A DNA stretch of 64,000 nucleotides, from assembly GCA_963576735.1 (NCBI GenBank), contig OY755175.1:9316401-9380400 (forward strand), given 5' to 3'. Positions within the stretch are counted from its first letter, which is position 1. Every line of letters begins with the position of its first letter. The translations under genes and the position numbers were made by a program. Of this stretch, positions 1 to 62,982 are shown in pieces. The notes under the pieces were generated by a model that had not been told where the DNA came from, ran no database searches, and was given only the letters and a program-made list of their open reading frames with translations. This DNA comes from Bedellia somnulentella. Taxonomy: Eukaryota; Arthropoda; Insecta; Lepidoptera; Bedelliidae.

Positions 1-2160
1 ACCCGTCACTAGATTGTATTAAATAAATAAGAAGCGAGGGAAACGTACCCATCACTAGATTATATTAAATAAATAAGTAGCGAAGGAAACGTACCAGTCA
101 CTACATTGAATAAAATAAATGAGAAGCGAGGGAAACGTACCCATCACTAGAATATATTAAATAAATAAGTAGCGAAGGAAACGTACCAGTCACTACATTG
201 TATAAAATAAATGAGAAGCGAGGGAAACGTACCCATCACTAGATTATATTAAATAAGTAGCGAAGGAAACGTACCAGTCACTACATTGTATAAAATAAAT
301 GAGAAGTGAGGGAAACGTACCCATCACTAGATTATATTAAATAAATAAGTAGCGAAGGAAACGTACCAGTCACTACATTGTATAAAATAAATGAGAAGCG
401 AGGGAAACGTACCCATCACTAGATTATATTAAATAAATAAGTAGCGAAGGAAACGTACCAGTCACTACATTGTATAAAATAAATGAGAAGCGAGGGAAAC
501 GTACCCATCACTAGAATATATTAAATAAATAAGTAGCGAAGGAAACGTACCAGTCACTACATTGTATAAAATAAATGAGAAGCGAGGGAAACGTACCCAT
601 CACTAGATTATATTAAATAAATAAGTAGCGAAGGAAACGTACCAGTCACTACATTGTATAAAATAAATGAGAAGCGAGGGAAACTTACCCATCACTAGAT
701 TATATTAAATAAATAAGTAGCGAAGGAAACGTACCAGTCACTACATTGTATAAAATAAATGAGAAGCGAGGGAAACGTACCCATCACTAGATTATATTAA
801 ATAAATAAGTAGCGAAGGAAACGTACCAGTCACTACATTGTATAAAATAAATGAGAAGCGAGGGAAACGTACCCATCACTAGATTATATTAAATAAATAA
901 GTAGCGAAGGAAACGTACCAGTCACTACATTGTATAAAATAAATGAGAAGCGAGGGAAACGTACCCATCACTAGATTATATTAAATAAATAAGTAGCGAA
1001 GGAAACGTACCAGTCACTACATTGTATAAAATAAATGAGAAGCGAGGGAAACGTACCCATCACTAGAATATATTAAATAAATAAGTAGCGAAGGAAACGT
1101 ACCAGTCACTACATTGTATAAAATAAATGAGAAGCGAGGGAAACGTACCCATCACTAGATTATATTAAATAAATAAGTAGCGAAGGAAACGTACCAGTCA
1201 CTACATTGTATAAAATAAATGAGAAGCGAGGGAAACGTACCCATCACTAGAATATATTAAATAAATAAGTAGCGAAGGAAACGTACCAGTAACTACATTG
1301 TATAAAATAAATGAGAAGCGAGGGAAACGTACCCATCACTAGATTATATTAAATAAATAAGTAGCGAAGGAAACGTACCAGTCACTACATTGTATAAAAT
1401 AAATGAGAAGCGAGGGAAACGTACCCATCACTAGATTATATTAAATAAATAAGTAGCGAAGGAAACGTACCAGTCACTACATTGTATAAAATAAATGAGA
1501 AGCGAGGGAAACGTACCCATCACTAGATTATATTAAATAAATAAGTAGCGAAGGAAACGTACCAGTCACTACATAGTATAAAATAAATGAGAAGCGAGGG
1601 AAACGTACCCATCACTAGAATATATTAAATAAATAAGTAGCGAAGGAAACGTACCAGTCACTACATTGTATAAAATAAATGAGAAGCGAGGGAAACGTAC
1701 CCATCACTAGAATATATTAAATAAATAAGTAGCGAAGGAAACGTACCAGTCACTACATTGTATAAAATAAATGAGAAGCGAGGGAAACGTACCCATCACT
1801 AGATTATATTAAATAAATAAGTAGCGAAGGAAACGTACCAGTCACTACATTGTATAAAATAAATGAGAAGCGAGGGAAACTTACCCATCACTAGATTATA
1901 TTAAATAAATAAGTAGCGAAGGAAACGTACCAGTCACTACATTGTATAAAATAAATGAGAAGCGAGGGAAACGTACCCATCACTAGATTATATTAAATAA
2001 ATAAGTAGCGAAGGAAACGTACCAGTCACTACATTGTATAAAATAAATGAGAAGCGAGGGAAACGTACCCATCACTAGATTACATTAAATAAATAAGTAG
2101 CGAAGGAAACGTACCAGTCACTACATTGCATTAAATAAATAGGTAGCGAGAGAAACTTAC
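1..2160. repeat. Satellite array: alternating 46-bp monomers, 92-bp dimer
   Basis: The block is a continuous tandem array that enters from the left window edge. Two related 46-bp monomers alternate. One begins GAGAAGCGAGGGAAACGTAC and the other AAGTAGCGAAGGAAACGTAC, and both end in ATAAAT. The core GGAAACGTACC and a CACTA motif are shared. About 23 dimers are present. Sparse variants mark individual units: GAAT for GATT after CACTA, AAACTTAC for AAACGTAC near 682 and 1878, and a 4-bp deletion near 254. The last monomers (2080-2160) are more diverged, as expected at an array edge. No coding potential is visible. Confidence 0.97.
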
Positions 2161-4420
2161 CTTTCAAATGGTTTCTCGCCACCCACTTTTTATTATTATT
2201 ATTATTATTTTTTTTATATTATAATTCTTCTATTATGTTCCCCTATATTTATGAAGCTGCTTTATTAGTTAAGAGAGAAATCTATAATTATACATCTGCT
2301 CCCCTAAGATTTCACTCTGAATGTCTGCAAAATCTCAATAAAGACAAACTATATGTACCTCATTATCATTATTAATTAGCCTCAAGCAGCAAAACTATTT
2401 TTATTATGGCTTGTAGAATTTATAATGCAAATTCTATAAATATAAAATTGTTATGTTTTAATAAATTTAAAAAAAATAAAAGAAATGCTTGAATGGCTAT
2501 TAGGATATTGTTTTTATTATATTTTATTTGAATATGGTTTTAGCTGTGAGATTGACATTTTAAACTTAGGGCGACATGTAATTAGTTAAGTCATTCTTTA
2601 TTTTTGTCTTTATTATAATTTAAAATCATATTCCTATATTAATAAAATGTAAAGACTTATGTTGTAAGCTTGGAAGAACAAAATGTGTAGGGAACAATAA
2701 CTTATATGCTGTAACCACCTTGTAACCCACATTTACAGCGAATAAATGACTACATTGATTAATAATTCACTTAGTATTAATATATTCAATGCATAAGAAA
2801 TAGAAGAATTCCAAATTTGAATTGTAGTCTAAAAATGTGTAAAATTAAAGTGGTATTATTCATATATATTACTGATATACTCCTTTAATCTTATAATCAC
2901 AATTAATTGCATCTTCATCCATCAATGCATTTAACCAAAATAAATATGGTGGATAAAGAATTTGAAATTGTTTCAAATAAGAACAAAAGTTTAATCACTT
3001 ATTTGATTTGTGTTGTTAACAAATACGTAGTGTACTTATAATTTAATTTGTCATAGTGACGCCACAATTTAAACAGAAGTTCTTAAGTCAACTCATCGTT
3101 ACTTTAGTGATCAGCTTAACCCACTCATACGTCTACTATTTACAGAGACGATACTGGAAAGTTACTACAGCTGATTGCTCCAAAACTAACAGGGAGTGCC
3201 CTAGCCAAGCACTTCGGAACCATTCCGTACGCAGCTTTACAATATTACGCTCAAATATTGGTTTCTTAGAAACAATGACTATTCTATAAACATTAAAATA
3301 CTTTGTTCGAGCATCGATTTGCTATATTATAAATCATAAAATGTTAAATGGCGTCACTACAACAATGTGGAAAAGAAAAATAAATGAATAACCAAAAAGC
3401 AATGTACCTACATACTTGAATGGACGTGAATATATCACCGCTTCTGAAGTTTGAAGAAAAACGACTATTGATGATGATGATTACTATATATTATACTATT
3501 CAATGTACATTACATTATTTGATGCCTTGATCACAAGTCACTCTCCCGCGCATCCAAACTAGGAATCCCGCCTTCATCTTTTTCTCATCTTGACATTGAC
3601 ATAAATTGCAGTGTCACGGCACACTGTCGGTGTTGCCAATTCATAAAAATATGACATGTTGTTGTGAATGTAGAATCTTACGAATATACTAAAATAAAAT
3701 AATGAATCTCAGGCTTAATATGTTTCTAGCATAAGAATCTTTTTTATTACTTGCCCTTTCGAGTTTATTTTATATGTGCTTTGCTTTACTATGAGAAACA
3801 TAGAAATATTTAGCATGGGAAAAATGTACAAAAAATTTAAAACGTACACTTTCTCTGCACACCTTTGTAATACAGTCATGCTAGATACTGTGAAAGTACG
3901 ATCCAAATATAACTTCATAGTAACACAGTGCACTTTGGTAAGAACAAGGTTCTATTTTTATATGTTTGGAAAACTAGTGCTAAACTTGTCGGTAAATTCT
4001 GTTAAATAATAGCTATTTTGACTGAATCGGCCTTGACACATTAGTCATGCTTTGATGGACGAGTATTGTATGTTGCCGTGAGTTTGACGTGACCTTTACG
4101 TGTATCCCTATTTTTGGCCAGCTTTGCTCAATTAAAGAGGAAAATTGATCAACATATGAAAAGCATTTGACTTGTTAGTACCGCAATAGGATACTGCTTT
4201 TTATTGTTCAATTTCAAGACCGCGCTTTTTGGCCCAATTATGCGAATCGTCTAATTTCTATGGAAATAAATTCATTAATAAAAATGACGGCATTTGGAGA
4301 GGCACAAGAAACAAAATTTAATCACACTCGGAAAACGATATTATTTCATTTCAATCTAAATAGACAATGAAATAAAATGCTTTAGAGCGAACAAACGAAA
4401 ATTTTCACCACGGCCTAAAT
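2161..4420. other. AT-rich unique DNA without a recognisable gene
   Basis: A (TTA)n run at 2189-2207 directly follows the satellite edge. The rest is AT-rich. Short open frames (for example 3056-3289 and 3776-4009) show no recognisable domain or coding signature and are probably chance. No RNA gene or transposon terminus was recognised. Confidence 0.6.
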
Positions 4421-6507: not shown

Positions 6508-8226
6508 TCAGCCATTATTATTATAACTATAAAATTCGTTTAAATTATAAAAACAGTTTTGAACCAACCACTCTTTTAGGTGTTTTTTGAAAAGGGTAAT
6601 TGGCTTACCTTTTATACATTCAGGAATGTTGTTAAAAATGTGTGGCATCATTACACTGCAAGATTTCCCTCGTAGGGCCGTCGATGACGCTGGGATTTTT
6701 ATGTTATTTGGAAACTTGTTATGGAGCCTGCTACCTTCGTTGTACATCTTTTCAAATAACAATGAATTTTGTTTTACAAAAACACAAATTTCATAAATGT
6801 AAATACTTGCAAGTGTTAATAGTTTCAGTTCTACAAAATAAGACCTACATGACTCACGAGGCTCCAGTCCAATAATAGTTCTTTTACACCTTTTCTGTAG
6901 AATGAACAAAGTTTGGACATCTGTCGAGTGACCCCACACAACTATGCCATACCTTAACGCCGATTCCACATAACCATGATAAGCAAGTATTGCTGTTTGC
7001 CGGTTGACGGTTGTGGCAAGCCTATATAGGACATATACAAATTTGTTTATTTTTCCAAATACTTTTTCAACATGGTGTTTCCAATTCATTTGACAATCTA
7101 GTTGGATACCTAAAAAATTAATACAATTGACTTCTTTTACAGATTGTTCTCTATATTTTATATTTATTAAAGTCCCGGGCTTCACTCTATTGTAAAATTG
7201 CATATAACATGTCTTGTCTACATTAAAACTAAGATTATTTGCGGTCATCCATTGAATAATTAAAGTTAAGGTGTTATCTATGTCAATTTGAAAATTAATG
7301 TCATTTTTAAAACTTATAACTACAGAGATGTCATCAGCAAACAAAGTGCATGAGTGCTTGGTCACATTCGGGAGGTCATTAATATATAAAAGAAAAAGTA
7401 AAGGAGCCAAGACACTTCCCTGAGGCAAACCTACAGGGTTTTTTTCAACTTCAGACTTATATGAAATGATTTCCGAATATTCATTGCCCTGTAAGATCTC
7501 AACGTATTGACACCTGTTTTCTAAGAAGGATTTAATTAATTCCGATGCTGGGCCGCGTATACCATATTTTTCACACTTATAAAGCAATATATTATGTGCA
7601 ACATTTTCAAATGCCTTTTTCATTTCGAAGAATATAGCTACAGTTGGAATCTTCTCGTCAACATTTCTACTTACTATATCAACTAACTGAACACAGGCCG
7701 ATGTTGTATTCTTTCCTCTCTGAAAAGCATGTTGCTCCGGTCTTAAAATACTATATTTTATTAAAAATGCATACAATCTATTATATATTAACTTTTCAAC
7801 TATTTTCGACAAAATAGAAACTAACGTTATAGGTCTGTATTTACTTATATCCTCCCTATTGTCTTTTTTGAATAGTGGTTTAACAACCGACAGTTTCAAA
7901 CAACTAGGAAATACTCCTTTTTGAAAACATCTGTTCGCTAAATTTTCAATAATAATTGATAAACATTCCGAGCATTCCTTTATTATCCTAGTATTTATCT
8001 CGTCATACCCTGTCGCGTTTGTATTTTTTAATCCTTGTATGCATTTTTTCACTTCGCAGACATCGCACGGTTTTAGAAAAATGGTTGTGAGTTGAGATTC
8101 TAGTCGACTAGCCATTGTACAGCCACCGTTCGTGCTAGAATTTCCCAAAACTGATTGAATAAAATATTTATTGAATTCTGAGGCTATTTCTTTTGGTTCG
8201 TTTATTATGCGTTTATTATACGTTTA
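6508..8226 (-). pseudogene. Reverse-transcriptase ORF of a Jockey/CR1-group LINE
   Basis: The frame is open from 8226 to the stop near 6508. Translation from 8148 gives 546 residues, but no convincing ATG is present there, so the 5' part is missing. The order of domains is: a linker typical of these ORF2 proteins (KYRPITLVSILSKIVEKLI, about residues 102-120), motif A region (AIFFEMKKAFENV, about 168-180), motif B (GLPQGSVLAPLLF, about 236-248), motif C (LFADDISVV, about 268-276), then thumb and C-terminal region. In motif A the catalytic aspartate position of the usual F-x-D pattern is glutamate. With the missing endonuclease this indicates an inactive copy, although the frame has stayed open over about 1.7 kb. 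Best placed in the Jockey/CR1 group; clade is uncertain. Confidence 0.88.
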
Positions 8227-10620: not shown

Positions 10621-10780
10621 CATTAGCAAATATAAAAGAATTCATTCAATTCATAGATTGCACTCATTTTTATATTTTATTGTTTAATTTATTAGAAATG
10701 GGAAAAAGAACAAAACCGTTAAAATAACTTCTAATTTCAATTAATAATATAAAATAGTTACAGGTGTAAACTGAAAATTA

Positions 10781-11022
10781 TATACATACATTTACTCACG
10801 GCTATAAATCCCTTAACGGGATAGCCAGAGCTTTGGAATGAGAAAGTTCTCAGCCACTTTTGGAAGTTGATTTGGGAAAAGATGGTAATAATATATGATT
10901 TCGGTGACGGTTCTCCAACCACATCGCCCAAAAATCACTTAAAAAGCCCCTATACCCTTAGTCGCCTCTTACGATCACGGGTAGAAATGGGGTAGTGTTA
11001 TTCTAAGCCGACACGACACGGC
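10781..11022 (-). repeat. SINE A copy
   Basis: On the minus strand it runs from the head (GCCGTGTCGTGTCGGCTTAG type) through CACCGAAATC-type and TGGCTGAGAAC-type body blocks to the tail TACCCCGTTAAGGGATTTAT, GCCGTGAGTAAATGTATG. The order matches the other family A copies at 22.3, 33.1, 37.9, 40.8 and 56.8 kb. No pol III tRNA boxes are obvious. Confidence 0.85.
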
Positions 11023-11147
11023 AAAAGTTATGAAATTATCACTGTAATAATTTTGTATAAACTGACAGGGGTAGACAGATCTATCGTATCATTACATTTA
11101 TATTGTAAACGGCCATGGTAGAAACTATTTTTGAAATTGATAACCTA

Positions 11148-13742: not shown

Positions 13743-14576
13743 TGCTTCTAAATATCACGGGACATTGTCACAGACACAGCGCGTCATCTTACCGTAGATT
13801 TATGACTCATTACCGTCTTTGTCTTATTTTAGATAATTCATTAAAAAAATGGTAAATCAGATGTTGCAGTAAATCACATCATGCATTAGACAAATTAAAG
13901 TCATCATTAATTTACATGTAATGCAAGTTGGTAATGTTATTGCATAATTACTTGTAACATTTAGAACATCATAGAACGGCATCTCACTGGAAAAGGCTCC
14001 TTAAAATTAGAAATTTATACAAATACACATTAGACACATTATTTCATCACATCGATCAGCATGATTACATTTTCCACTACAAAGCCTTTTTGCCTCAATT
14101 CCCACCAAATCTGTGACCAACAACGTTACCTTCTTATTGCCACTCAAATCCTAAAGATTACACTCAAACAGATAGCATTACTTTATCTTCCTTTTATTGT
14201 TAAAAGGAAGAAATATATTTTTCTATACAAAATCAAGGTTGTGCTTAATTTTAATTAAAACAGCCACAATCTTCTGTTCATGGAATCATTTTCTAAACAT
14301 CACAAAACGTAATTGGTTTACGGTTTCAAGCTACTGTTAAAAAACACAGTCTTTTCCAAATATTTGAAATCTAAACCATTGTAACGATGTCCGTGAAATA
14401 TAACTTTTTATTCTTCTTTAATTACAACGCTGATTACTTGCTATTATTGCTAAATGATCTCTTTTAATTTTTTAGTAAGAAAGTAATAACGATTGTATAT
14501 GCCAAGACAGCTAAGAAAGGATAAGTTATATACATAGGTTAAAATACTACCTTTATGTTTTTTTTTTATTTTAATC

Positions 14577-14808
14577 ATACATACACACATTAATATACTC
14601 ACGGCTATAAGTCCCAAAAAGCGGTAGCCAGAGTTTTAGAGCTACCATACTCCTCAGCGACATTAGGATGTTGATAGGTAATTAGATGGTAGAAATAAAG
14701 TATCGTTGGTTGGATCCAACCGCATCGCCCAAAAACCATATAAAAAGCCCCATATTTCGCCTGTTACGACACCCGTGGGAAGAAAGGGTAGTGATGTTCT
14801 ACACGGCA
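14577..14808 (-). repeat. SINE A copy
   Basis: Minus-strand family A copy from a GCCGTGTAGAACATC head to a GGGACTTATAGCCGTGAG tail and a TATG-like end. Slightly degenerate. Confidence 0.8.
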
Positions 14809-22326: not shown

Positions 22327-22646
22327 TGCCGTGTAGTGCCGGCTTTGCCGTGTAGTGCCGACTTAGATTGCCGTGTAGTGCCGGCTTAGATTGCCGTGTA
22401 GTGCCGGCTTAGAATGTCGCTACCCCTTTCTACCCACGGGTGTCGTAAGAGGTGACTAAGGGTATGGGGCCTTTAGTGGTTTTTGGGCGATGCGGTTGGA
22501 AACCCATCACCAACTATACTACATTTCTGCCATCTACTCCCCTATCAATATCCAAATGTGGCTGAGGAGATTCTAGCTCTGCAGCTCTGGCTACCCCGTT
22601 TTGGGATTTATGGCCGTGAGTATATGTATGTATGTATGTAAGCTAA
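22327..22646 (+). repeat. SINE A copy with fourfold repeated head
   Basis: The head TTGCCGTGTAGTGCCGGCTT occurs four times in tandem at 22327-22415 (20-26-bp spacing, some ending CTTAGA) before a single complete body. The body runs ATGTCGCTACCCC, GTCGTAAGAGGTGACTAAGG, TTTTTGGGCGATGCGGTTGG and AAATGTGGCTGAGGAG. It ends in the tail TACCCCGTTTTGGGATTTAT, GGCCGTGAGTATATG and (TATG)n. This is the best family A copy in the window. Confidence 0.9.
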
Positions 22647-25691: not shown

Positions 25692-25941
25692 TTACATACA
25701 TGCATACGTATACTCAAGGCCCTAAATCCTAAAAAAAAGGTAGTCAGAGCTGTAGAGATAGAATTTCTTCGCCACATTTGGAAGTTGATAGGGGAGAAGA
25801 TGGTAGAAATAAATTATCGTTGGTGATCGGCCTCTAACCGCTTCGCCTAAAAACCACTAAAAAAAACACCATACCCTTAGTTCAGCCTCTTACGATACCA
25901 GTAAGTAAAAAGGGGTAGTGACATTCAAAAGACGGCAAGAT
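25692..25941 (-). repeat. SINE A copy
   Basis: The minus strand carries a degenerate head, the GCGGTTAGAGGCCGATCACC-type block, CAAATGTGGCGAAG, the tail GGATTTAGGGCCTTGAGTAT and a TATG-like end. The usual CCCC/GGG stem is decayed (ACCTTTTTTTTAGGAT). Confidence 0.75.
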
Positions 25942-33107: not shown

Positions 33108-33347
33108 ACATACATACATACATATACTCACGGCTATAAATCCCTAGAAGGGGTAGCCAGAGCTAAGGATTCAGAAATTTCTCAGCCAATTTTGGAAGTT
33201 GTGTGGGGAAAAGATGGTGAAATAAAGGTTGTTGGTGATGGGTCTCCAACCGCATCGTCCAAAAATCTCTCAAAAGCCCCAAAACCGTTAGTTGCCTCTT
33301 ACGGAAGAAATGGGGTAGTGCTATTCTAAGCCGACACTACACAGCAA
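33108..33347 (-). repeat. SINE A nested in a Helitron
   Basis: On the minus strand: head GCTGTGTAGTGTCGGCTTAG, body GATGCGGTTGGAGACCCATC and CAAAATTGGCTGAGAAA, tail TACCCCTTCTAGGGATTTAT, AGCCGTGAGTATATGTATG. Nearly full length. Confidence 0.88.
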
Positions 33348-37464: not shown

Positions 37465-37907
37465 GTTTTAATTAAGTTTTCGAATAAAATGACCGCAACA
37501 TACCAACAAACAGACAGACTGACATTATGTTATTTCTACATGTACTTATATTTTTACTAACTCCTGCTAGAATGTACGAGTACAATTAAATACAAACTCT
37601 ATGCAGCAAAATTACTTAGAGTGAATACAAAAAAATATAGTGACTATCACAAAGCACCATGTTAAGTCACTTATCTGCGTGTTAATTTACCTATCGGTAT
37701 TATATCTGATATAAGCACTCAGAACCTTTTCCGATGACATGGCAAGCTCAGCTCATTATCGGTTTATCTGTGCTATCATACAAATAAAAAACACTATCGG
37801 TTTTGTAGTTGTGGTTTAAAATAACACTAACCCGTTTCTTCCGGTAGTCTGACATAATGTGTTAATAGACTTAATGTGTTAGGGTTATTTAAGTTATTCT
37901 AGGTGAT

Positions 37908-38156
37908 GCCGTGTAGTGCCGGCTTAGAATGTCACTACCACTTTCTACCCCCGAGTGTCGTAGGAGTCGACTAAGGGTTATGGGGCTTTTTAAGTGGTTT
38001 TTGGGCGATGCTGTCGGAGACCCATCACCGATGATACTATATTCCTACCATCTTGTCCCCTATCAACTTCCAAATGTGGCCGAGGAGTTTCTAGCTCTGA
38101 AGCTCTGTCTACCCCGTTTTGGGAATTATGGCCGTGAGTATATGTATGTATGTATT
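37908..38156 (+). repeat. SINE A copy, full length
   Basis: Head GCCGTGTAGTGCCGGCTTAG, body GTTTTTGGGCGATGCTGTCG and CCAAATGTGGCCGAGGAG, tail TACCCCGTTTTGGGAATTAT, GGCCGTGAGTATATG, (TATG)n. The overlapping 112-codon frame is produced by the repeat. Confidence 0.9.
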
Positions 38157-40502: not shown

Positions 40503-40792
40503 ATGCCCATAAATTGAAGAAAAATATTGAGTCGTGCTTTCCTCAATGTGCATTTTCGTCAGTTATCTGTGTGGTTAATTTATGAAGGTTGTTGACGGTG
40601 ACGAAAACAGCGTGTTGAATCCCATATAGCTTAGTTACCGTTGGTCATTGACAGCATATTCGTACAAAGCTTTGATACACCTAGTAAAAATTACAATGTA
40701 TGATAACCTCATTATGGCTCTTGTTTTATTTTATATTCTATAGAAATTTACTACAGATGTTTATTATCTGAAGCTTGATAAATAATACTAAC

Positions 40793-41022
40793 ACATACTC
40801 ACGGCTATAAATCCCTTAAAGGGTTAGCCAGAGCTAAGGAATTGGAAATTCCTCAGCCACTTTTGGAAAGTTGAGTGGGGTAAATATGGTAAAATAAAGG
40901 ATGTTGGTGATTGGTCTCCAACCGCATCGCCCAAAAATCCCTTCAAAGCCCCAATATCTTACGTACATCCACCGGAAGAAATGGGGTAGTGTTATTCTAA
41001 GCCGACACTACACAGCTACACA
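40793..41022 (-). repeat. SINE A copy
   Basis: Minus-strand head GTGTAGTGTCGGCTTAGAAT, body GGGCGATGCGGTTGGAGACC, tail TAACCCTTTAAGGGATTTAT, AGCCGTGAGTATGTGT. Near full length. Confidence 0.87.
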
Positions 41023-48599: not shown

Positions 48600-48760
48600 A
48601 ACACACCTGGTGGTAGTATCCTCATTTTGGCTTGATATGGTATTCGCATGGTTCGATACAGGTATATAGCCGCCCAACACGAACAAACTAGAATTTTCGA
48701 ACCTACGACTTAAAATTTCAAGCGGCGCTCTTCTAACTGTACCAACAAGGTTGTATCTAA
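48600..48760 (-). repeat. Probable tRNA-derived SINE
   Basis: On the minus strand a box A-like TTGGTACAGTTAGAAGAGCG and a box B-like GTAGGTTCGAAAAT stand at tRNA-like spacing (48760-48690). The body and family are unclear. Confidence 0.45.
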
Positions 48761-48775
48761 TAGATACTTTCGCAA

Positions 48776-48792
48776 TATAATAATAATAATAA
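48776..48792. repeat. (TAA)n target run before Dong copy 1
   Basis: About five to six TAA units lead directly into the 5'-truncated retrotransposon copy. Confidence 0.95.
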
Positions 48793-49148
48793 TCACGGAC
48801 AGGACTATTCTAGCGAATAAGCCTGATATCGTGGTATGGGATCGGTCGCAGTCGAGGGTGTTTCTAGTGGATGTCACTATCCCTCATGACGAGGGTCTCG
48901 TGAAAGCCGACACCGAGAAGCGTCGGAAATATCTCGATCTGGCTCACGAGATCACCGACATGTGGGGTGTGACTTCGACAGAAATAATCCCAATTGTTTT
49001 GTCCGCGAACGGGTTAATTCCAACCAGTCTCGCGACCAACTTGAGGCGGTTGGATTTCTGTGGCGTGTCGGTTCCAGCACAAATGCAGAAAGCGGTGCTG
49101 CTCGATACGGCTCGGATCGTCCGTCGGTTCTTGAACCTGACTCCCTGA
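48792..49148 (+). pseudogene. Dong/R4-like ORF, endonuclease C-terminal fragment (copy 1)
   Basis: The frame reads from the TAA run into TDRTILANKPDIVVWDRS and ends ARIVRRFLNLTP before a TGA. It keeps the endonuclease catalytic pattern P-D-X14-D and the following EKRRKYLDLAHE stretch, but no reverse transcriptase. It matches the end of the 924-residue protein of copy 3 residue for residue as far as I can compare. There is no plausible own start codon or promoter. Confidence 0.92.
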
Positions 49149-49233
49149 CCCCGACCGACTGTGCTCTTGTCGGGGAGTACCGCCTCTCCCATTTAAAATT
49201 TATATTTTCATTTTCGACCATGGGAGAGGCGAG
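48793..49233 (+). mobile_element. Dong/R4-like retrotransposon copy 1 (5'-truncated)
   Basis: Only the last about 0.44 kb are present: the endonuclease C-terminus (48792-49148), then the 3' UTR with two hairpins (CCCCGAC/GTCGGGG at 49149-49175; CGCCTCTCCCAT/ATGGGAGAGGCG at 49181-49231). The usual short segment after the second hairpin (GGAACTAAAAATCATGCC in other copies) is replaced by GAAACAAAAATG, which belongs to the duplicated target described for copy 2. Confidence 0.92.
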
Positions 49234-49266
49234 AAACAAAAATGTTTTCCGAAATAATAATAATAA
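49232..49266. repeat. Left target duplication and (TAA)n before Dong copy 2
   Basis: AACAAAAATGTTTTCCGAAA followed by TAA units occurs here and again at about 51033-51062. The two blocks flank copy 2. A target duplication of about 29 bp is the simplest reading. Confidence 0.85.
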
Positions 49267-50912
49267 CGGATGACCAAATTGATATAAGGCGAGGGATTTT
49301 CCAGGGCGATTGCCTGAGTCCAGTTTGGTTTTGCTTGGCCCTGAATCCTCTAAGTACACTCTTGGAGAATTCGGGGACGGGCTTTCAGTTTCGGAGAGGC
49401 GGACCACGCTTGCCTCATCTCCTTTACATGGATGACCTGAAGCTTTACGCCCCCACGGCTGACAGATTGGCGGAGCTACTGACGATCACTAACGATTTCA
49501 GTGGTTACGTCAAGATGGAGCTCGGGGTCGATAAGTGTGCGGTTATTCATGTTGAGAAGGGGCATGTCGTGCACTCTGATGGTGTCGATGTCGGCACCAA
49601 TCATTTGAGGGCACTCTCCGAGGCTGAAACATACCGGTATCTGGGCATGTCACAAACCATCGGTGTGAAGGTGGCAGACGTGAAACAGGGTGTTTGCGAG
49701 GAGTTTTATGAACGCCTGAAAAGTGTGCTTAATAGCTACTTGTCAGGCGTTAATAAGATCCGAGCCATTAACTCCTGGGTCATGCCTGTACTGATGTACA
49801 CATTTGGCGTGCTCAGATGGACTCAGACCGAACTCGACGCTCTGGACAGACGAGTCCGCACGATGATGACCTCTCATCGAATGCATCATCCGAGGTCGTC
49901 GGTTATGAGATTGTATATCCCGCGGAAGTGTGGTGGTCGAGGCCTCTTGAGTGCCAAAACCATGCACAACCGCGAGATATGCAACCTCAGAAACTATTTC
50001 TTGACGATGACGGATGATAGTATTCGGGGAGAGGTGGTCGCTAGTGATAAAGGACTGACTCCCTTATCGTTGGCCTCACAGGATTGGCGAACCCCGGAGG
50101 TACTTAGCACCTCTGATCGGGACTCCGTATGGAAAGAGAAGGAGCTGCACGGGAGGTTTTACAAGGTACTTCACGAACCTTTCGTGGACCGTAAAGCCTC
50201 CCTGCATTGGCTGCGTTTCGGGGACCTCTTTGGGGAAACCGAAGGTTTTGTCTGTGCAATACAAGACCAGGTTATCAAGACGCGGAACTATCGGAAATAC
50301 ATCCTAAAGGACGGTACCACAGACATCTGTCGAGCATGTGGCCGTCCCGGAGAGTCACTTAGGCATGTTATTTCCGGTTGTTCGGCTCTTGCTAACACTG
50401 AGTACTTGCACAGACACAACCAAGCAGCCAAAATCCTGCATCAGGAGCTCGCTCTGAAATACGGACTCTTGCAACAGAGGCTGCCGTATTACAATTATCT
50501 GCCGGAGCCAATCCTAGAAAACGACCGTGCCAAAATCTATTGGGACCGATCCGTTATCACGGACAGGACTATTCTAGCGAATAAGCCTGATATCGTGGTA
50601 TGGGATCGGTCGCAGTCGAGGGTATTTCTAGTGGATGTCACTATCCCTCATGACGAGGGTCTCGTGAAAGCCGACACCGAGAAGCGTCGGAAATATCTCG
50701 ATCTGGCCCACGAGATCACCGACATGTGGGGTGTGACTTCGACAGAAATAATCCCAATTGTTTTGTCCGCGAACGGGTTAATTCCAACCAGCCTCGCGAC
50801 CAACTTGAGGCGGTTGGATTTCTGTGGCGTGTCGGTTCCAGCACAAATGCAGAAAGCGGTGCTGCTCGATACGGCTCGGATCGTCCGTCGGTTCTTGAAC
50901 CTGACTCCCTGA
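49242..50912 (+). pseudogene. Chimeric ORF: target-derived start fused to Dong/R4-like RT-endonuclease (copy 2)
   Basis: The ATG and the first nine codons (MFSEIIIIT) come from the duplicated target and its TAA repeats, read as ATA. They run in frame into the retrotransposon at the start of motif B (IDIRRGIFQGDCLSP). Motif C (LLYMDDLKLYA), the thumb, the C-X2-C-X8-H-X4-C knuckle and the P-D-X14-D endonuclease follow, and the 556-codon frame ends as in copy 3. Reverse-transcriptase motif A with its aspartate is absent, so polymerase activity is not expected. The endonuclease is complete. Only two residue differences from copy 3 are visible in the shared part (I/V in the motif B lead, Y/S before VKMELG). 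Confidence 0.92.
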
Positions 50913-51034
50913 CCCCGACCGACTGTGCTTTTGTTGGGGAGTACCGCCTCTCCCATTTAAAATTTATATTTTCTTTTTCGGCCATGGGAGAGGCGAGGAA
51001 CTACAAATCATGCCTAAAATAATAATAATAATAA
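49267..51034 (+). mobile_element. Dong/R4-like retrotransposon copy 2 (5'-truncated, about 1.77 kb)
   Basis: It begins within reverse-transcriptase motif B (GGATGACCAAATTGATATAA; the corresponding point in copy 3 is about 52228). It runs through the endonuclease, the stop (50912), the two 3' UTR hairpins, AAATCATGCCTAAAA and a TAA run. It is flanked by a direct duplication of the target. Nucleotide identity to copy 3 is very high; only scattered substitutions are visible. Confidence 0.95.
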
Positions 51035-51082
51035 CAAAAATGTTTTCCGAAATAATAATAATTTATAATAAATATAATAATT
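51019..51082. repeat. TAA-rich spacer with right target duplication
   Basis: TAA units, then ACAAAAATGTTTTCCGAAAT (the duplicated target), further TAA units and ATTTATAATAAATATAATAA lead to copy 3. Confidence 0.9.
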
Positions 51083-53976
51083 TGTCGGCGTCAGGATGCC
51101 GCCAACAAGAGCTGGTGGCTCCCGCCAGGCTGGCAGTACTAGTCCCAGGACTAGAACTAGACCAGCCTGGATGAGGCGGATTGAAAGCCGTATCACAAGG
51201 GCCAGGGTCCTCATCGGCAAACTGACCAGCTTCAGATCAGGCAACAATAGGCCGAGGGTGGTGCGCTTCGTCAGGGAGGCATTCCTTGGTGAGAATGTCT
51301 TTGACAACTCACCGGAGTTTGCCTGCAGACTGGTGGAGCGCATCGATGATCTGAAGCAGAAGATCGCTGCTTGGGGTAAGCGAATTAGGCGATATTCTGA
51401 AAGGGTAAAGAGGTACCAACAGAATCGTCTCTTCATGAGTGACCAGAAGAAGTTCTACAGAACTTTGGAGCGTCCCGATGTGGTTTCGACGGGTCAGCGA
51501 CCGGAAAAAGCCGACGTAGTTGCCTTTTGGCGTGGGCTTTGGTCGCTGCCTGTTGATCACGAAGAGGGCCGATGGTTCGAGGCGGTCGAGGGAGCGTGCG
51601 AGCCCATAGCGCCCATGAACCCCGTCAACATATCCGAGGAGGATGTGGTGGCTGCGATCCGTAAGGCTCCGAACTGGAAAAGTCCGGGGCCGGACGGATT
51701 GCACCATTACTGGTTGAAGGGGTTCACGCGCTGTCACGCTACTCTCGCCCGTCAGTTCCAAAGCGCCCTCGAGAGTAGGACGCTCCCGAACTTCTTAACT
51801 ACTGGGGTCACTCATTTAGCTCCAAAGAGCGATGCTACCGCGGATCCATCACAATACCGTCCCATTACTTGTCTTTGTACAATTTACAAGACCTTCACAT
51901 CCGTGCTGAGCTCCAAGATTACTCAACACATTGTTGATAACAATGTGATCTCTGGAGCTCAGAACGGGTGTAGGGGCGGTAGTCGCGGTAGCAAGGAGCT
52001 GCTCCTCATCGACGCGGTCGTAGGCCAACTGGTCAAACGCAACCGTCGGAACTTCTCCGCTGGCTGGATAGACTACAGGAAAGCGTTCGATTTGGTACCT
52101 CATACATGGCTCATAAGGGTCCTCGAGCTGTACAAAATTGATAGTACAGTTCGACACTTCCTCGGGCAGTGTATGGGGTGCTGGAGAACGATCCTGAGTT
52201 TAGACGGTCAGCGGATGACGGACGCGGATGACCAAATTGATGTAAGGCGAGGGATTTTCCAGGGCGATTGCCTGAGTCCAGTTTGGTTTTGCTTGGCCCT
52301 GAATCCTCTAAGTACACTCTTGGAGAATTCGGGGACGGGCTTTCAGTTTCGGAGAGGCGGACCACGCTTGCCTCATCTCCTTTACATGGATGACCTGAAG
52401 CTTTACGCCCCCACGGCTGACAGATTGGCGGAGCTACTGACGATCACTAACGATTTCAGTGGTTCCGTCAAGATGGAGCTCGGGGTCGATAAGTGTGCGG
52501 TCATCCATGTTGAGAAGGGGCATGTCGTGCACTCTGATGGTGTCGATGTCGGCACCAATCATTTGAGGGCACTCTCCGAGGCTGAAACATACCGGTATCT
52601 GGGCATGTCACAAACCATCGGTGTGAAGGTGGCAGACGTGAAACAGGGTGTTTGCGAGGAGTTTTATGAACGCCTGAAAAGTGTGCTTAATAGCTACTTG
52701 TCAGGCGTTAATAAGATCCGAGCCATTAACTCTTGGGTCATGCCTGTACTGATGTACACATTTGGCGTGCTCAGATGGACTCAGACCGAACTCGACGCTC
52801 TGGACAGACGAGTCCGCACGATGATGACCTCTCATCGAATGCATCATCCGAGGTCGTCGGTTATGAGATTGTATATCCCGCGGAAGTGTGGTGGTCGAGG
52901 CCTCTTGAGTGCCAAAACCATGCACAACCGCGAGATATGCAACCTCAGAAACTATTTTTTGACGATGACGGATGATAGTATTCGGGGAGAGGTGGTCGCT
53001 AGTGATAAAGGACTGACTCCCTTATCGTTGGCCTCACAGGATTGGCGAACCCCGGAGGTACTTAGCACCTCTGATCGGGACTCCGTATGGAAAGAGAAGG
53101 AGCTGCACGGGAGGTTTTACAAGGTACTTCACGAACCTTTCGTGGACCGTAAAGCCTCCCTGCATTGGCTGCGTTTCGGGGACCTCTTTGGGGAAACCGA
53201 AGGTTTTGTCTGTGCAATACAAGACCAGGTTATCAAGACGCGGAACTATCGGAAATACATCCTAAAGGACGGTACCACAGACATCTGTCGAGCATGTGGC
53301 CGTCCCGGAGAGTCACTTAGGCATGTTATTTCCGGTTGTTCGGCTCTTGCTAACACTGAGTACTTGCACAGACACAACCAAGCAGCCAAAATCCTGCATC
53401 AGGAGCTCGCTCTGAAATACGGACTCTTGCAACAGAGGCTGCCGTATTACAATTATCTGCCGGAGCCAATCCTAGAAAACGACCGTGCCAAAATCTATTG
53501 GGACCGATCCGTTATCACGGACAGGACTATTCTAGCGAATAAGCCTGATATCGTGGTATGGGATCGGTCGCAGTCGAGGGTATTTCTAGTGGATGTCACT
53601 ATCCCTCATGACGAGGGTCTCGTGAAAGCCGACACCGAGAAGCGTCGGAAATATCTCGATCTGGCCCACGAGATCACCGACATGTGGGGTGTGACTTCGA
53701 CAGAAATAATCCCAATTGTTTTGTCCGCGAACGGGTTAATTCCAACCAGCCTCGCGACCAACTTGAGGCGGTTGGATTTCTGTGGCGTGTCGGTTCCAGC
53801 ACAGATGCAGAAAGCGGTGCTGCTCGATACGGCTCGGATCGTCCGTCGGTTCTTGAACCTGACTCCCTGACCCCGACCGACTGTGCTCTTGTCGGGGAGT
53901 ACCGCCTCTCCCATTTAAATTTTATATTTTCTTTTTCGGCCATGGGAGAGGCGAGGAACTAAATGTCATACCCAAT
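51083..53976 (+). mobile_element. Dong/R4-like retrotransposon copy 3 (longest copy)
   Basis: The 5' edge abuts TAA-rich DNA at about 51080, and the ORF starts 13 bp later. The 3' UTR (53871-53976) has the conserved double hairpin (CCCCGAC/GTCGGGG and CGCCTCTCCCAT/ATGGGAGAGGCG) and ends in a TAA run. The absence of any 5' UTR and of an N-terminal zinc finger suggests a modest 5' truncation. An unusually short family cannot be excluded. Assignment to the R4 clade, Dong lineage, rests on the restriction-like endonuclease, the single ORF and the TAA target. Confidence 0.92.
51096..53870 (+). CDS. Reverse transcriptase with restriction-like endonuclease, Dong/R4 clade
   Basis: The single ORF of a site-selective non-LTR retrotransposon has 924 residues and is uninterrupted. 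The protein would nick target DNA and prime reverse transcription from the nick in the nucleus. An Arg/Lys/Ser-rich N-terminus (about 1-60) is followed by a linker ending in SPGPDGLHHYW (about 195-205) and YRPITCLCTIYK. Then come motif A GWIDYRKAFD (aspartate about 326), motif B RRGIFQGDCLSP (about 380), motif C YMDD (430-433) and the thumb. A CCHC knuckle follows (C731, C734, H743, C748), then the endonuclease with P817-D818 and D833 (P-D-X14-D) and a downstream lysine-rich helix. All catalytic residues of both activities are present. An ATG at 51096 is the first in frame, with an in-frame TAA 18 bp upstream. The N-terminal zinc finger often found in this group is not visible. Higher GC than the surroundings and near identity to its neighbours indicate recent insertion. 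Confidence 0.93.
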   Translation: MPPTRAGGSRQAGSTSPRTRTRPAWMRRIESRITRARVLIGKLTSFRSGNNRPRVVRFVREAFLGENVFDNSPEFACRLVERIDDLKQKIAAWGKRIRRYSERVKRYQQNRLFMSDQKKFYRTLERPDVVSTGQRPEKADVVAFWRGLWSLPVDHEEGRWFEAVEGACEPIAPMNPVNISEEDVVAAIRKAPNWKSPGPDGLHHYWLKGFTRCHATLARQFQSALESRTLPNFLTTGVTHLAPKSDATADPSQYRPITCLCTIYKTFTSVLSSKITQHIVDNNVISGAQNGCRGGSRGSKELLLIDAVVGQLVKRNRRNFSAGWIDYRKAFDLVPHTWLIRVLELYKIDSTVRHFLGQCMGCWRTILSLDGQRMTDADDQIDVRRGIFQGDCLSPVWFCLALNPLSTLLENSGTGFQFRRGGPRLPHLLYMDDLKLYAPTADRLAELLTITNDFSGSVKMELGVDKCAVIHVEKGHVVHSDGVDVGTNHLRALSEAETYRYLGMSQTIGVKVADVKQGVCEEFYERLKSVLNSYLSGVNKIRAINSWVMPVLMYTFGVLRWTQTELDALDRRVRTMMTSHRMHHPRSSVMRLYIPRKCGGRGLLSAKTMHNREICNLRNYFLTMTDDSIRGEVVASDKGLTPLSLASQDWRTPEVLSTSDRDSVWKEKELHGRFYKVLHEPFVDRKASLHWLRFGDLFGETEGFVCAIQDQVIKTRNYRKYILKDGTTDICRACGRPGESLRHVISGCSALANTEYLHRHNQAAKILHQELALKYGLLQQRLPYYNYLPEPILENDRAKIYWDRSVITDRTILANKPDIVVWDRSQSRVFLVDVTIPHDEGLVKADTEKRRKYLDLAHEITDMWGVTSTEIIPIVLSANGLIPTSLATNLRRLDFCGVSVPAQMQKAVLLDTARIVRRFLNLTP

Positions 53977-53987
53977 AATAATAATAT
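53977..53987. repeat. (TAA)n between Dong copies 3 and 4
   Basis: Three to four TAA units. Confidence 0.9.
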
Positions 53988-54234
53988 GAACGGGTTAATT
54001 CCAACCAGCCTCGCGACCAACTTGAGGCGGTTGGATTTCTGTGGCGTGTCGGTTCCAGCACAAATGCAGAAAGCGGTGCTGCTCGATACGGCTCGGATCG
54101 TCCGTCGGTTCTTGAACCTGACTCCCTGACCCCGACCGACTGTGCTTTTGTTGGGGAGTACCGCCTCTCCCATTTAAAATTTATATTTTCTTTTTCGGCC
54201 ATGGGAGAGGCGAGGAACTAAAAATCATGCCTAA
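53988..54234 (+). mobile_element. Dong/R4-like retrotransposon copy 4 (247 bp)
   Basis: It starts in the last coding exon-equivalent (GAACGGGTTAATTCC), keeps the final about 46 codons to TGA (54126-54128), the double-hairpin 3' UTR and ATCATGCCTAAAA. The first hairpin reads GTTGGGG, as in copy 2, keeping a G-U pair. Confidence 0.93.
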
Positions 54235-54249
54235 AATAATAATATATAT
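54235..54249. repeat. TAA/TATA run between Dong copies 4 and 5
   Basis: AATAATAATATATAT, a TAA run with a short TA extension. Confidence 0.85.
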
Positions 54250-54582
54250 GTCGGAAATATCTCAATCTGGCTCACGAGATCACCGACATGTGGGGTGTGA
54301 CTTCGACAGAAATAATCCCAATTGTTTTGTCCGCGAACGGGTTAATTCCAACCAGCCTCGCGACCAACTTGAGGCGGTTGGATTTCTGTGGCGTGTCGGT
54401 TCCAGCACAAATGCAGAAAGCGGTGCTGCTCGATACGGCTAGGATCGTCCGTCGGTTCTTGAACCTGACTCCCTGACCCCGACCGACTGTGCTCTTGTCG
54501 GGGAATACCGCCTCTCCCATTTAAAATTCTAATTTTCTGTTTCGGCCATGGGAGAGGCGAGGAACTAAAATTCATGCCTAAA
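54250..54582 (+). mobile_element. Dong/R4-like retrotransposon copy 5 (about 333 bp)
   Basis: It begins at GTCGGAAATATCTCAATCTG in the endonuclease region, has the stop at 54476, then the two hairpins and TTCATGCCTAAAA with TAA units to 54591. It carries a few private substitutions (for example GGCTAGGATC, TTCTAATTTTCTG in the loop of hairpin 2), so it appears older or from another source copy. Confidence 0.93.
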
Positions 54583-54591
54583 ATAATAATA

Positions 54592-55785
54592 AAACTCTTT
54601 ATTGCACATTACAAAATAAAAACAACAATTACAAAAAAAGATCGGTATAAAAGCCAAAGTACAACTGGCGGTCTTATCACTAAGAGCGATCTCTTCCAGA
54701 CAACCCATTAATGGAAAGATTTGCTGGATTAAAAAAATTTTCGTTAGATGTCCAATAAATTAAACTGATTTGCTTAAAAACTAAAATTATTCATCAAACT
54801 ATTATCTATCTATTTTAAGTATTACTAAATATTTATTAAGTTCTAATACACTTACAGATACAGATAGTATTCCATAAAATAAATAATATTCAATAAATAC
54901 AATATATATGCAATATATATAAAGATTTTTAAATAAAATACATATATACATTTTACGACATAATATATAATAGAATAAATAAACTTTTGTATGCAACACA
55001 AATAATATTATAATGTTTCGGAGAGGAAGTGTTTTTTACCATTTTCTTGAAAATAGGGAGAGACTTGGCTAATCGCACCTCTACAGGAAGACCGTTCCAT
55101 AGTTGTACAGCCTGGACGGTAAAGGAGGAACTATAAAAATTGGTGGAATGGGAAGGGGTACTCAACAAAAGATTGTGGTAAGAACGCAGATTGAGGTCAT
55201 GTGAAGAGTGAAGGAATTGGAAACGCTCTTTAAGGTAGGAGGGGGTGGCAGGATTAAACAAGATAGAGTACAGGAGAGACAGAGTATGTGCATTCCGGCG
55301 GAGATGAATTGGAAGCCACTGAAGTTTATTGCGATACGCAGAGACATGGTCATATTTACGCAGTCCGAAAATAAACCTAATACATAAGTTTTGTAAGCGC
55401 TCAAGTTTGTTCAGTTGATCTTCAGTTAGATCGAGATAGCAGGTGTCAGCATAATCAAGAATAGGTAGTAGAAAAGATTGGGCTAACGCAGTTTTGGTAG
55501 CAGTAGGGAGAAAGTTACGTAGCCTCCTGAGGGACCCTTCTGACGCAAACAGCCTCCGGCTTACTAATTCCAGTTGCGGTACCCAAGATAAGGTGCTATC
55601 TATCATCACACCAAGGTTTTTTTACAGCAGCGCTGAAAGGAATGGATGTGCCATCAAATAAAACAGGCGGTATTGATTTATAGTCAATCTTGGAAACAAT
55701 TCGTGAGCTACCAACTATAATTATTTGCGTTTTATTCGGATTAACTTTCAATCCATATGCTTCACTCCATTTCAAAATAAGAAAA
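54592..55785 (-). mobile_element. Jockey/CR1-group LINE 3' half
   Basis: On the minus strand a reverse-transcriptase frame (55785-54953) is followed by a 3' UTR that ends TGTGCAATAAAGAG and TTTTATTATTATT. Its 3' tail coincides with the TAA run of Dong copy 5. It is 5'-truncated inside the palm domain. Confidence 0.82.
54953..55785 (-). pseudogene. LINE reverse transcriptase, C-terminal half, frameshifted
   Basis: The 218-codon open part begins at GVMIDSTLSWVPQLE-type sequence just after the palm and contains the thumb/C-terminal region (LPILDYADTCYLDL, LERLQNLCIRFIFGL, LQWLPIHLRRN, VQLWNGLPVEVR). This order is characteristic of the C-terminal part of Jockey/CR1-group ORF2 proteins. Upstream, a second frame (55785-55622) encodes WSEAYGLKVNPNKTQIIIVG, the region just after motif C. 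The two are out of frame at a T-run near 55617-55623. Motifs A-C proper are missing, so the copy is inactive. Confidence 0.85.
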
Positions 55786-56802: not shown

Positions 56803-57054
56803 TATACATACATACATACATATACTCACTGCTTTATTTCCCTAGAAGGGGTAACCAGAGCTAAGGAAATATAAATTCCTCAGCCACTTTTGGAAGTTAA
56901 GTGGGGAAAAGATGGTAAAAATAAAGGTTTTTGGTGATGGGTCTCCAACCGCATCGTCCAAAAATCCCATAAAAAGCCCCAATACCCTTAGTCGCCTCTT
57001 ACGACACCCGTGGGTAGAAAGGGGTAGCGACATTTTAAGCCGGCACTACACGGC
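56803..57054 (-). repeat. SINE A copy, full length
   Basis: Minus strand: head GCCGTGTAGTGCCGGCTTAA, CACGGGTGTCGTAAGAGGCG, GATGCGGTTGGAGACCCATC, AAAAGTGGCTGAGGAATTTA, tail TACCCCTTCTAGGGAAATAA and (TATG)n. The open frame on its minus strand is a repeat by-product shared with the copy at 37.9 kb. Confidence 0.9.
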
Positions 57055-57309
57055 AATTATTATATAAAATATATGTTAAAATACCTATAATGGTAATATT
57101 AATTATAAAATTAATTCAGTGAACTGGATAAATTGAGATGGACTTAATGGTAAATGAACACCAATCCCTTATTGCCTTTTAAATAAAAAAAAAATCTATG
57201 ACGCTATGCTGACTAAATCAATCACATGAGAAAGATATAGAAGATACCTGTAGTATAATTACTATATAATTTTCAATATTTTACTAAGTAATTGCTGAGT
57301 CTTATTGGT

Positions 57310-61977: not shown

Positions 61978-62982
61978 TAATAACATTACATTACATTACA
62001 TATTCTCACGCCGTTAGTTCCCATTGGGGTAGGCAGAGACTATCGATCGCCACTTTGTACGATCCTGGCAAACTTCTCTGGCTTCGTTTACATCCATCAA
62101 TCTTTTCATACATGCTCTTTTATTCTTCATACTGCGGACACTTGCCTTTTTGAGCACATGTTCTATTTGATCCAAATGTGTCCTCCGAGGTCGTCCTCTA
62201 CTAACATTACCTTCCACATTGGCTCTATATATCTCTTTCACCAATTTACTGTCATCCATCCTCTCTATGTGCCCAAACCATCTCAACATTCCTTTTTCTA
62301 TCTTTCTTACAATATCATCTTTTACACCACACCTTTCACGAATCACATCATTCCTCACACGATCACATAACCTTACATTACACACTTTTCTGAGGGATCT
62401 CATTTCTACTGCATTCACTCTACTTTCATGCTTCTTCTGCCACACCCAACATTCACTGCCATACATAAGCGTAGGAACGAGGACAGCATCATGCACAGCC
62501 ATTCGGGCCTTTGCAGACACCGACTGACTAGACATTAGACTATCCAGTGCTCCATTTACCGCATTACCCTTTTTCACTCTTCTCTCGATATCTTCATCAC
62601 ACTTTCCATCCCTAGTAAACAAACTTCCCAAATATACAAACTCTTTCACTTGTTCCACTTTCTTACCATTAATCTCAATCACGCATTCGGTCATATTCAC
62701 CTCTCTCTCAAAAACCATAGTTTTTGTTTTATCCACATTCACCCTCATTCCCTTTTTCTCAAAAGACGCACATGCAATATTCATCATCTCTTGCAGCTCT
62801 TCCACCGATGATGCAAGTAGCACTTGATCGTCGGCATATAAGAGGCATTTAATGATGAATCCACCCATTCTCAATCCATAATCACTTTCACGCAACTCTG
62901 TTAAACAGTCATCCATGAACAAATTGAAGAGCCACGGGGAAGCTACACAACCCTGTCGGAAGTAGCTACACAACCCTGTAGT
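61978..62982 (-). mobile_element. RTE-clade LINE, 5'-truncated (about 1 kb)
   Basis: On the minus strand the ORF (62982-62014) runs into a very short 3' end: CTACCCCAATGGGAACTAAC, GGCGTGAGAATATG and a (TGTAA)n tail at 61984-62000. A minimal 3' UTR with a short tandem tail is typical of RTE elements. The 5' edge carries a 23-bp tandem duplication (62941-62956 repeated at 62964-62979). Confidence 0.88.
62014..62973 (-). pseudogene. RTE-clade reverse transcriptase, C-terminal 319 codons
   Basis: The frame begins inside motif B (RQGCVASPWLFNLFMDD) and continues with motif C (CLLYADDQVLLA), the region after it (VNVDKTKTMVF), thumb segments (VKEFVYLGSLFTRDG, PTLMYGSECW) and the C-terminal block typical of RTE proteins (MLRWFGHIERMDD, GRPRRTHLDQIE). 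It ends TKWRSIVSAYPNGN. The N-terminal AP-endonuclease and motif A are missing and there is no real start codon. The frame is intact over its length, so the copy is fairly young. In the full element the protein nicks target DNA and reverse-transcribes its own RNA. Its 3' end is shared with SINE families A and B. Confidence 0.92.

Follow-up and report, generated by a model that had tools for sequence, protein, structure and literature searches.

Non-LTR retrotransposons (LINEs) of the R4/Dong class combine a reverse transcriptase (RT) with a C-terminal CCHC motif and a PD...D restriction-like endonuclease motif. For Dong of Bombyx mori, a member of the R4 lineage, TAA adjoins the element, and its 5′ junction was tested behind seven TAA repeats (PMC3774820, in excerpt). 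In the 28S genes of Drosophila, tandem R1 arrays are explained by new copies entering a target region regenerated by a prior insertion, the regenerated target being a 14-bp duplication at the R1 5′ end in the rDNA (PMC2718515, in excerpt). Utopia-1_NVit, a LINE with a restriction-like endonuclease that targets U2 snRNA genes, is "occasionally inserted in tandem" (PMC4640811, in excerpt). Copies of telomeric LINEs (SART/TRAS, HeT-A/TART/TAHRE and Zepp) pile up at a persisting repeat or chromosome end, head to tail in Drosophila (PMC10088271, in excerpt).

Here we describe an array of LINE copies within TAA repeats in a window of 64,000 nucleotides from the moth Bedellia somnulentella. The element is like Dong in its RT, C-terminal CCHC motif, restriction-like endonuclease motif and adjoining TAA, a likeness in described features. 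Unlike Dong, for which the excerpt of PMC3774820 mentions no arrays of copies, the element forms an array here. As in R1 arrays, same-strand copies are separated by target sequence, here with independent breakpoints, whereas the regenerated target would be the TAA of the 3′ tail. The R1 endonuclease is of a different kind from the restriction-like enzyme. The target is a microsatellite, in contrast to the gene used by Utopia-1_NVit, and the array has other sequence on both sides in the window, unlike the telomeric sites of telomeric LINEs.

Layout of the array

Self-comparison and BLAST agree on five copies of one Dong/R4-like LINE at 48,778-54,592, all on the same strand (Table 1), as an earlier sequence-only reading had claimed (five same-orientation copies within 5.8 kb). 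Copies 1 to 5 measure about 0.47, 1.77, 2.90, 0.26 and 0.34 kb, near the lengths given in that reading. Its claim that each copy has its own 5′ truncation is borne out, with distinct start points in element coordinates in all five (BLAST positions; the start of copy 3 was judged from its frame). The copies are also TAA-bounded as it had described: every copy closes with a run of TAA (9 nt or longer), a further run lies to the left of copy 1, and the spacers ahead of copies 3 and 5 are partly degenerate TAA. TAA/TTA-type runs of at least 9 nt number seven within the array and 15 in the rest of the 64 kb.

A BLAST search with copy 3 (E ≤ 1e-5), too coarse for pieces only a few tens of bases long, detected no copy in the window beyond the array. 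When the 10-mers of the left flank (48701-48792) were compared with the sequence to the right of 54561, all six rows obtained were TAA-type or AT-rich, and no target-site duplication of the whole array was found. The window contains no tRNA genes.

Near-identical copies linked by 10-17 nt of TAA are a hazard for short-read assembly, and reads from dispersed copies could have been misjoined through the TAA runs. We consider such an artefact very improbable, as the window has an N count of 0, the copies vary in sequence and length, and the 30-bp repeat described below forms a coherent junction.

Table 1 Features of the TAA array and its right-hand neighbour (positions within the window)
Feature	Position	Strand	Evidence
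TAA run left of copy 1; presumed left-hand remainder of the tract originally targeted	48778..48793	+	
Copy 1: 5′-truncated; ORF end, hairpin-bearing 3′ UTR, variant 3′ terminus and TAA tail	48792..49266	+	BLAST 96.8% to copy 3; 118 codons, no stop
30-bp direct repeat, left member: 3′-UTR end of copy 1 plus TAA	49235..49264	+	
Copy 2: ORF with later RT and endonuclease parts, 3′ UTR, TAA tail	49267..51034	+	BLAST 99.1% to copy 3; RVT_1 positions 115-203; 547 codons, no stop
30-bp direct repeat, right member: either a truncated sixth copy (18 nt plus TAA) or the copy 2 target-site duplication	51033..51062	+	
Degenerate TAA-like spacer from 30-bp repeat to copy 3	51063..51083	+	sequence
Copy 3 (longest): 924-codon open frame 51096-53870, RT, CCHC and PD...D endonuclease motifs, 3′ UTR, TAA tail	about 51084..53985	+	
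3′-UTR hairpin of copy 3: 12-bp stem, 27-nt loop	53903..53953	+	z -3.2 for 53868-53985
Copy 4: 3′ end only	53988..54244	+	matches copy 2 at 231/231 compared bases
Copy 5 (most divergent): 3′ end only, TAA tail	54250..54592	+	
Other LINE, 3′ part: frame 55609-54953, AATAAA, then TTA units that run into the TAA tract	54593..55609	-	no Pfam match of its own

The element is a Dong/R4-like LINE

The RT of copy 3 matches Pfam RVT_1 (4.2e-24). Among the 10 solved sequences that copy 3 matched, R2 proteins came out best (1.3e-32) and LINE-1 ORF2 was weaker. The CCHC residues (C731, C734, H743 and C748) and the endonuclease motif (P817, D818 and D833) are both present in 22 of the 22 aligned rows that reach these regions (23 rows in all; P0009 ends earlier). 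In copy 3 and four longer relatives, RVT_1 was the only domain above the Pfam cut-off, accompanied by three weak matches below it, and no apurinic-type endonuclease was found. The same 3′-UTR hairpin arms occur in all five copies. Copy 3 is itself 5′-truncated and lacks about 260-280 N-terminal codons; the residues ahead of the matching methionine number 276 in P0009 and 255-276 in P0001-P0003.

None of the best 120 of 1165 matches is named R4, Dong, R2, NeSL, CRE or HERO. Rfam at gathering scores gave no match in the window, HDV-like ribozymes included, but such a ribozyme would sit at the 5′ end, which all five copies have lost. Searches for Dong relatives with their flanks confirmed none in prokaryote genome contigs, where 12 stretches matched a pattern, or in viral contigs, where none did and 21 stretches gave an alignment. 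Together, the R2-like RT, the CCHC and PD...D motifs and the TAA at the 3′ ends of the copies support the assignment made in the sequence-only reading, that of a Dong/R4-like non-LTR retrotransposon, as far as sequence features can define one.

The copies probably derive from several source lineages

Copies 2 and 4 show no difference across the 231 bases they share up to the end of the hairpin, and a single difference in the terminal stretch excluded from that count. Identity in the remaining nine pairs is 96.5-99.4% over their shared stretches up to the same point. Synonymous changes account for nine of the 12 variable codons, whereas 26% would be expected (P = 5.3e-4, with sites treated as independent), and the 118, 547, 924, 46 and 74 codons of copies 1 to 5 are free of stop codons. 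The mostly synonymous differences and open frames suggest that most differences accumulated in functional source lineages prior to insertion. Thus, the copies probably represent four or more source lineages that had diverged before they inserted, a number that we infer from the sequences; part of the divergence may postdate insertion, and the number would then be lower.

At least four source lineages would speak against local duplication of a single insertion, whether through unequal crossing over or as a segmental duplication. Such an origin could account for the identity of copies 2 and 4 across 231 bases, and consecutive R1 copies in D. melanogaster have been attributed to amplification of one original event (PMC2718515, in excerpt). 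However, the five 5′ breakpoints are distinct, each lying at TAA or TAA-like sequence, and the mostly synonymous differences most probably predate insertion. With the expected shared breakpoints and flanks absent and synonymous changes in excess, segmental duplication is disfavoured, and we regard local duplication of any kind as hardly credible. These observations agree with the earlier claim of repeated insertions as opposed to a segmental duplication with identical 5′ breakpoints.

The same lineages weaken the case for concatenation in one event, in which the RT, during a single target-primed reaction, would leave one RNA and continue on the next, starting at its 3′ end. Template jumping of this kind occurs at a low level in vitro with the R2 protein (PMC10499050, in excerpt) and yields head-to-tail copies on the same strand. 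Here it would require RNAs of probably four lineages in a single event; copies 2 and 4, of one source, are not adjacent; and the spacers ahead of copy 5 and at 51063-51083 are degenerate TAA in place of clean tails. None of these points is decisive, but they make template jumping quite improbable. The label "concatemer" used in the sequence-only reading is therefore misleading, as separate insertions fit the evidence better than a single concatenated product.

A 30-bp direct repeat flanks copy 2

A perfect 30-bp direct repeat, which that reading had missed, flanks copy 2 and consists of the last 18 nt of the 3′ UTR of copy 1 followed by TAA. It may be a target-site duplication, in which case copy 2 landed in the tail of copy 1. 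Alternatively, and equally possibly, its right member may be a sixth copy cut to 18 nt, and the order of insertion would then be unproven. Under the first of these readings, the first-strand nick would lie in the 3′ UTR of copy 1, 18 bp outside the TAA run, which is a poor fit to a TAA-cutting enzyme. The junctions of copies 1, 3, 4 and 5 show no clear target-site duplication, and one lying within pure TAA would be invisible.

The repeat also bears on whether the tails mattered at all, since the insertions could merely have subdivided a long TAA microsatellite to which the tails added no important target. A long original tract would explain most of the junctions equally well. TAA lies on either side of the array, the tract joins the TTA tail of another LINE, and the seven runs total 94 nt, a feasible size for a single original tract. 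On the other hand, the repeat holds 18 nt of the copy 1 3′ UTR, so that the target of copy 2, if this is a target-site duplication, was the end of copy 1. Moreover, the longest perfect run outside the array in the 64 kb is 20 nt, which would make a tract of about 90 nt unusual for this window. On balance, we find it unlikely that a long tract received the insertions with no supply of target from the copies themselves.

Discussion

Sequential insertion of the copies is well supported, and we consider it rather probable that at least five of them entered one TAA tract by target-primed reverse transcription. Each copy's tail likely, though not provably, served as the target of the next. We infer the order of events and the use of tails, as opposed to leftovers of the old tract, as targets. 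The TAA tract probably started as the TTA tail of the opposite-strand LINE. A Dong/R4-like element would then have inserted on at least five separate occasions, its restriction-like endonuclease, with a presumed preference for TAA, nicking the TAA run. The RT, presumably holding the 3′-UTR hairpin, would use an RNA with terminal TAA units as its template, and a premature stop of synthesis at every insertion would produce the five different 5′ truncations. As TAA would be left 3′ of every insertion, the site would remain a target, and copy 2 possibly landed at the tail of copy 1.

The sequence-only reading had seen in this locus an element that targets itself. Self-targeting is plausible, and the only direct evidence for it is the 30-bp repeat around copy 2, whose second reading leaves it unproven; growth of the array, likewise, is extrapolated from one locus. 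The view that such behaviour is usually discussed only for telomeric or rDNA LINEs was a little too strong, given the published tandem Utopia copies in U2 genes (PMC4640811, in excerpt). Arrays built by target regeneration are already known from R1, tandem Utopia and telomeric LINEs, and the microsatellite setting is the new part. Among the listed papers on Dong, microsatellite LINEs and tandem or head-to-tail LINEs, no title or opening of an abstract mentions arrays formed by Dong or by any other LINE of microsatellites, which is not a claim of absence from print.

It is tempting, if tentative, to generalize that the 3′ tail of a LINE can be its own target, each insertion seeding the next. 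TAA tracts, including the tails of other LINEs, might then grow into arrays of 5′-truncated copies genome-wide, a retrotransposition route to satellite-like DNA. The harmlessness of target-specific LINEs is usually ascribed to a multicopy target that is fixed, for instance rDNA. If the 3′ tail is the target, the element would create its own safe harbour anywhere and could form arrays with no need of chromosome ends or rDNA. Any lepidopteran genome would allow a direct count of such cases, and the rule that the tail is the target would give sharp predictions for the junctions.

Array layout and a candidate origin of the TAA tract

Self-comparison and BLAST place five same-strand copies of one Dong/R4-like LINE (c1-c5, numbered left to right) within 48,778-54,592, and BLAST with c3, the longest copy, found no other copy in the whole window (E <= 1e-5). 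The five 5' start points all differ and every copy ends in TAA units, with a further TAA run left of c1, which bears out the sequence-only reading of same-orientation copies with distinct truncations and TAA ends. A directional TAA target would by itself impose a single orientation, so the shared orientation adds no separate evidence. TAA/TTA-type runs number 7 inside the array and 15 outside it in this window, which was chosen for its array; these counts show that other possible TAA targets existed nearby. At the left edge of the window, a 92-bp tandem array is followed by a (TTA)6 run.

Right of c5 lies the putative 3' end of another LINE. Its frame has no Pfam match of its own and 194 related proteins at E <= 0.001; among the 120 listed, the named relatives are lepidopteran and several carry RVT_1. 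The TTA units after its AATAAA run continuous with the TAA tract, and the simplest start would be that the tract began as the tail of this LINE. Such a tail is not peculiar to Dong, as the I element of Drosophila is described as ending in TAA repeats (PMC3747384). Two other frames read by eye like reverse transcriptases of other LINEs, and a dispersed repeat of ~250 bp recurs in the window, its members matching the stretch near 56.8 kb at about 75-84% identity.

Features in and around the array (window positions)
Feature	Position	Strand	5' start in c3 coordinates	Remark
c1	48792-49266	same as c2-c5	53514	
c2	49267-51034	same as other copies	52225	
c3	about 51084-53985	same as other copies	about 51084	
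c4	53988-54244	same as other copies	53729	
c5	54250-54592	same as other copies	53644	
Perfect 30-bp direct repeat	49235-49264, 51033-51062			flanks c2
3' end of another LINE (putative)	frame 55609-54953	opposite		AATAAA, then TTA units
Reverse transcriptase-like frame	6508-8148	-		546 aa
Reverse transcriptase-like frame	62014-62973	-		319 aa
Dispersed ~250-bp repeat	56806-57056, 33108-33347, 22390-22640, 37907-38155	both across family		
Dispersed ~250-bp repeat, more members	10779-11024, 40778-41016, 25693-25925, 14559-14788, and others	both across family		
92-bp tandem array	1-2161			23.5 copies, 97% matches; begins at window edge
(TTA)6 run	2190			no Dong copy by BLAST

Identity of the element

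The open frame of c3 spans 924 codons and carries an RVT_1 domain (Pfam); the best solved relatives of its protein are R2 retrotransposon proteins, with LINE-1 ranking behind. Of the 1165 relatives in a protein search, 120 were listed, and 22 of these were aligned with c3. The CCHC and PD...D residues, marks of a restriction-like endonuclease, are present in all 22 aligned rows that reach this part (P0009, the relative of highest identity among the matches listed, with 86% over 74% of c3, stops earlier). Also among the matches listed, the named best relatives are often lepidopteran (e.g. Hyposmocoma, Euphydryas, Parnassius), and beetle and other insect names stand lower; a moth or butterfly is accordingly the probable source of the window. 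Ahead of the methionine matching the start of the c3 frame, P0009 has 276 residues and three further relatives (P0001-P0003) have 255-276, and thus c3 too is 5'-truncated. Protein features and TAA ends together fit Dong of the R4 lineage, the putative clade of the element.

In the 3' UTR, a hairpin with a 27-nt loop has the same 12-bp arms in all five copies, and the 3' end of c3 (53868-53985) folds better than 200 of 200 shuffles (z -3.2). The last ~20 nt between hairpin and TAA vary strongly among copies, by eye much more than the remaining 3'-UTR sequence.

Probably several source elements

Over the stretches shared up to the hairpin end, c2 and c4 show no difference in 231 bases (one additional difference lies outside these, in the terminal stretch), and the remaining nine pairs are 96.5-99.4% identical. 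Nine of the 12 variable codons are synonymous, against about 26% expected for random change with transitions weighted twofold (P = 5.3e-4, treating sites as independent), and no copy contains an in-frame stop codon. Given this excess and the stop-free frames, most differences probably date from functional source elements, prior to landing; some may be later. The sources would probably number at least four (c1; c2 and c4; c3; c5). Set against the divergence among them, the copies appear to have landed recently. Mostly synonymous, pre-insertion differences from several sources are the strongest argument against local duplication of one copy, which we disfavour, and they also lower the probability of one concatenated product. 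The earlier proposal of separate insertions is supported.

The TAA tail as a proposed target

For R1 in Drosophila rDNA, regeneration of the target is reported to give tandem copies; in D. melanogaster, the same paper explains the consecutive R1 copies by one event that was then amplified (PMC2718515). Utopia is reported to insert occasionally in tandem in U2 genes (PMC4640811), and LINEs at telomeres are a familiar case (PMC10088271). Here, in contrast, each insertion would regenerate its target as the microsatellite tail of the element itself, a behaviour of which we found no description among the open-licence literature matches listed; it is read from one locus in an assembly.

The 30-bp repeat around c2 consists of 2 nt, 18 nt of the c1 3'-UTR end and 10 nt of TAA. 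No clear target-site duplication is visible for c1, c3, c4 or c5, as expected inside pure TAA. Two readings of the repeat are about equally likely. It may be a sixth copy of c1 type, cut to 18 nt, in which case every nick would stay in TAA and the order of insertions would be unproven. It may equally be the target-site duplication of c2, so that c1 was present first and its tail was used by c2. The first nick would then fall 18 bp outside TAA, and the duplication would show, for this one step, the mechanism suggested by the sequence-only reading, in which the TAA tail of each insertion recreates a target beside itself and the array grows.
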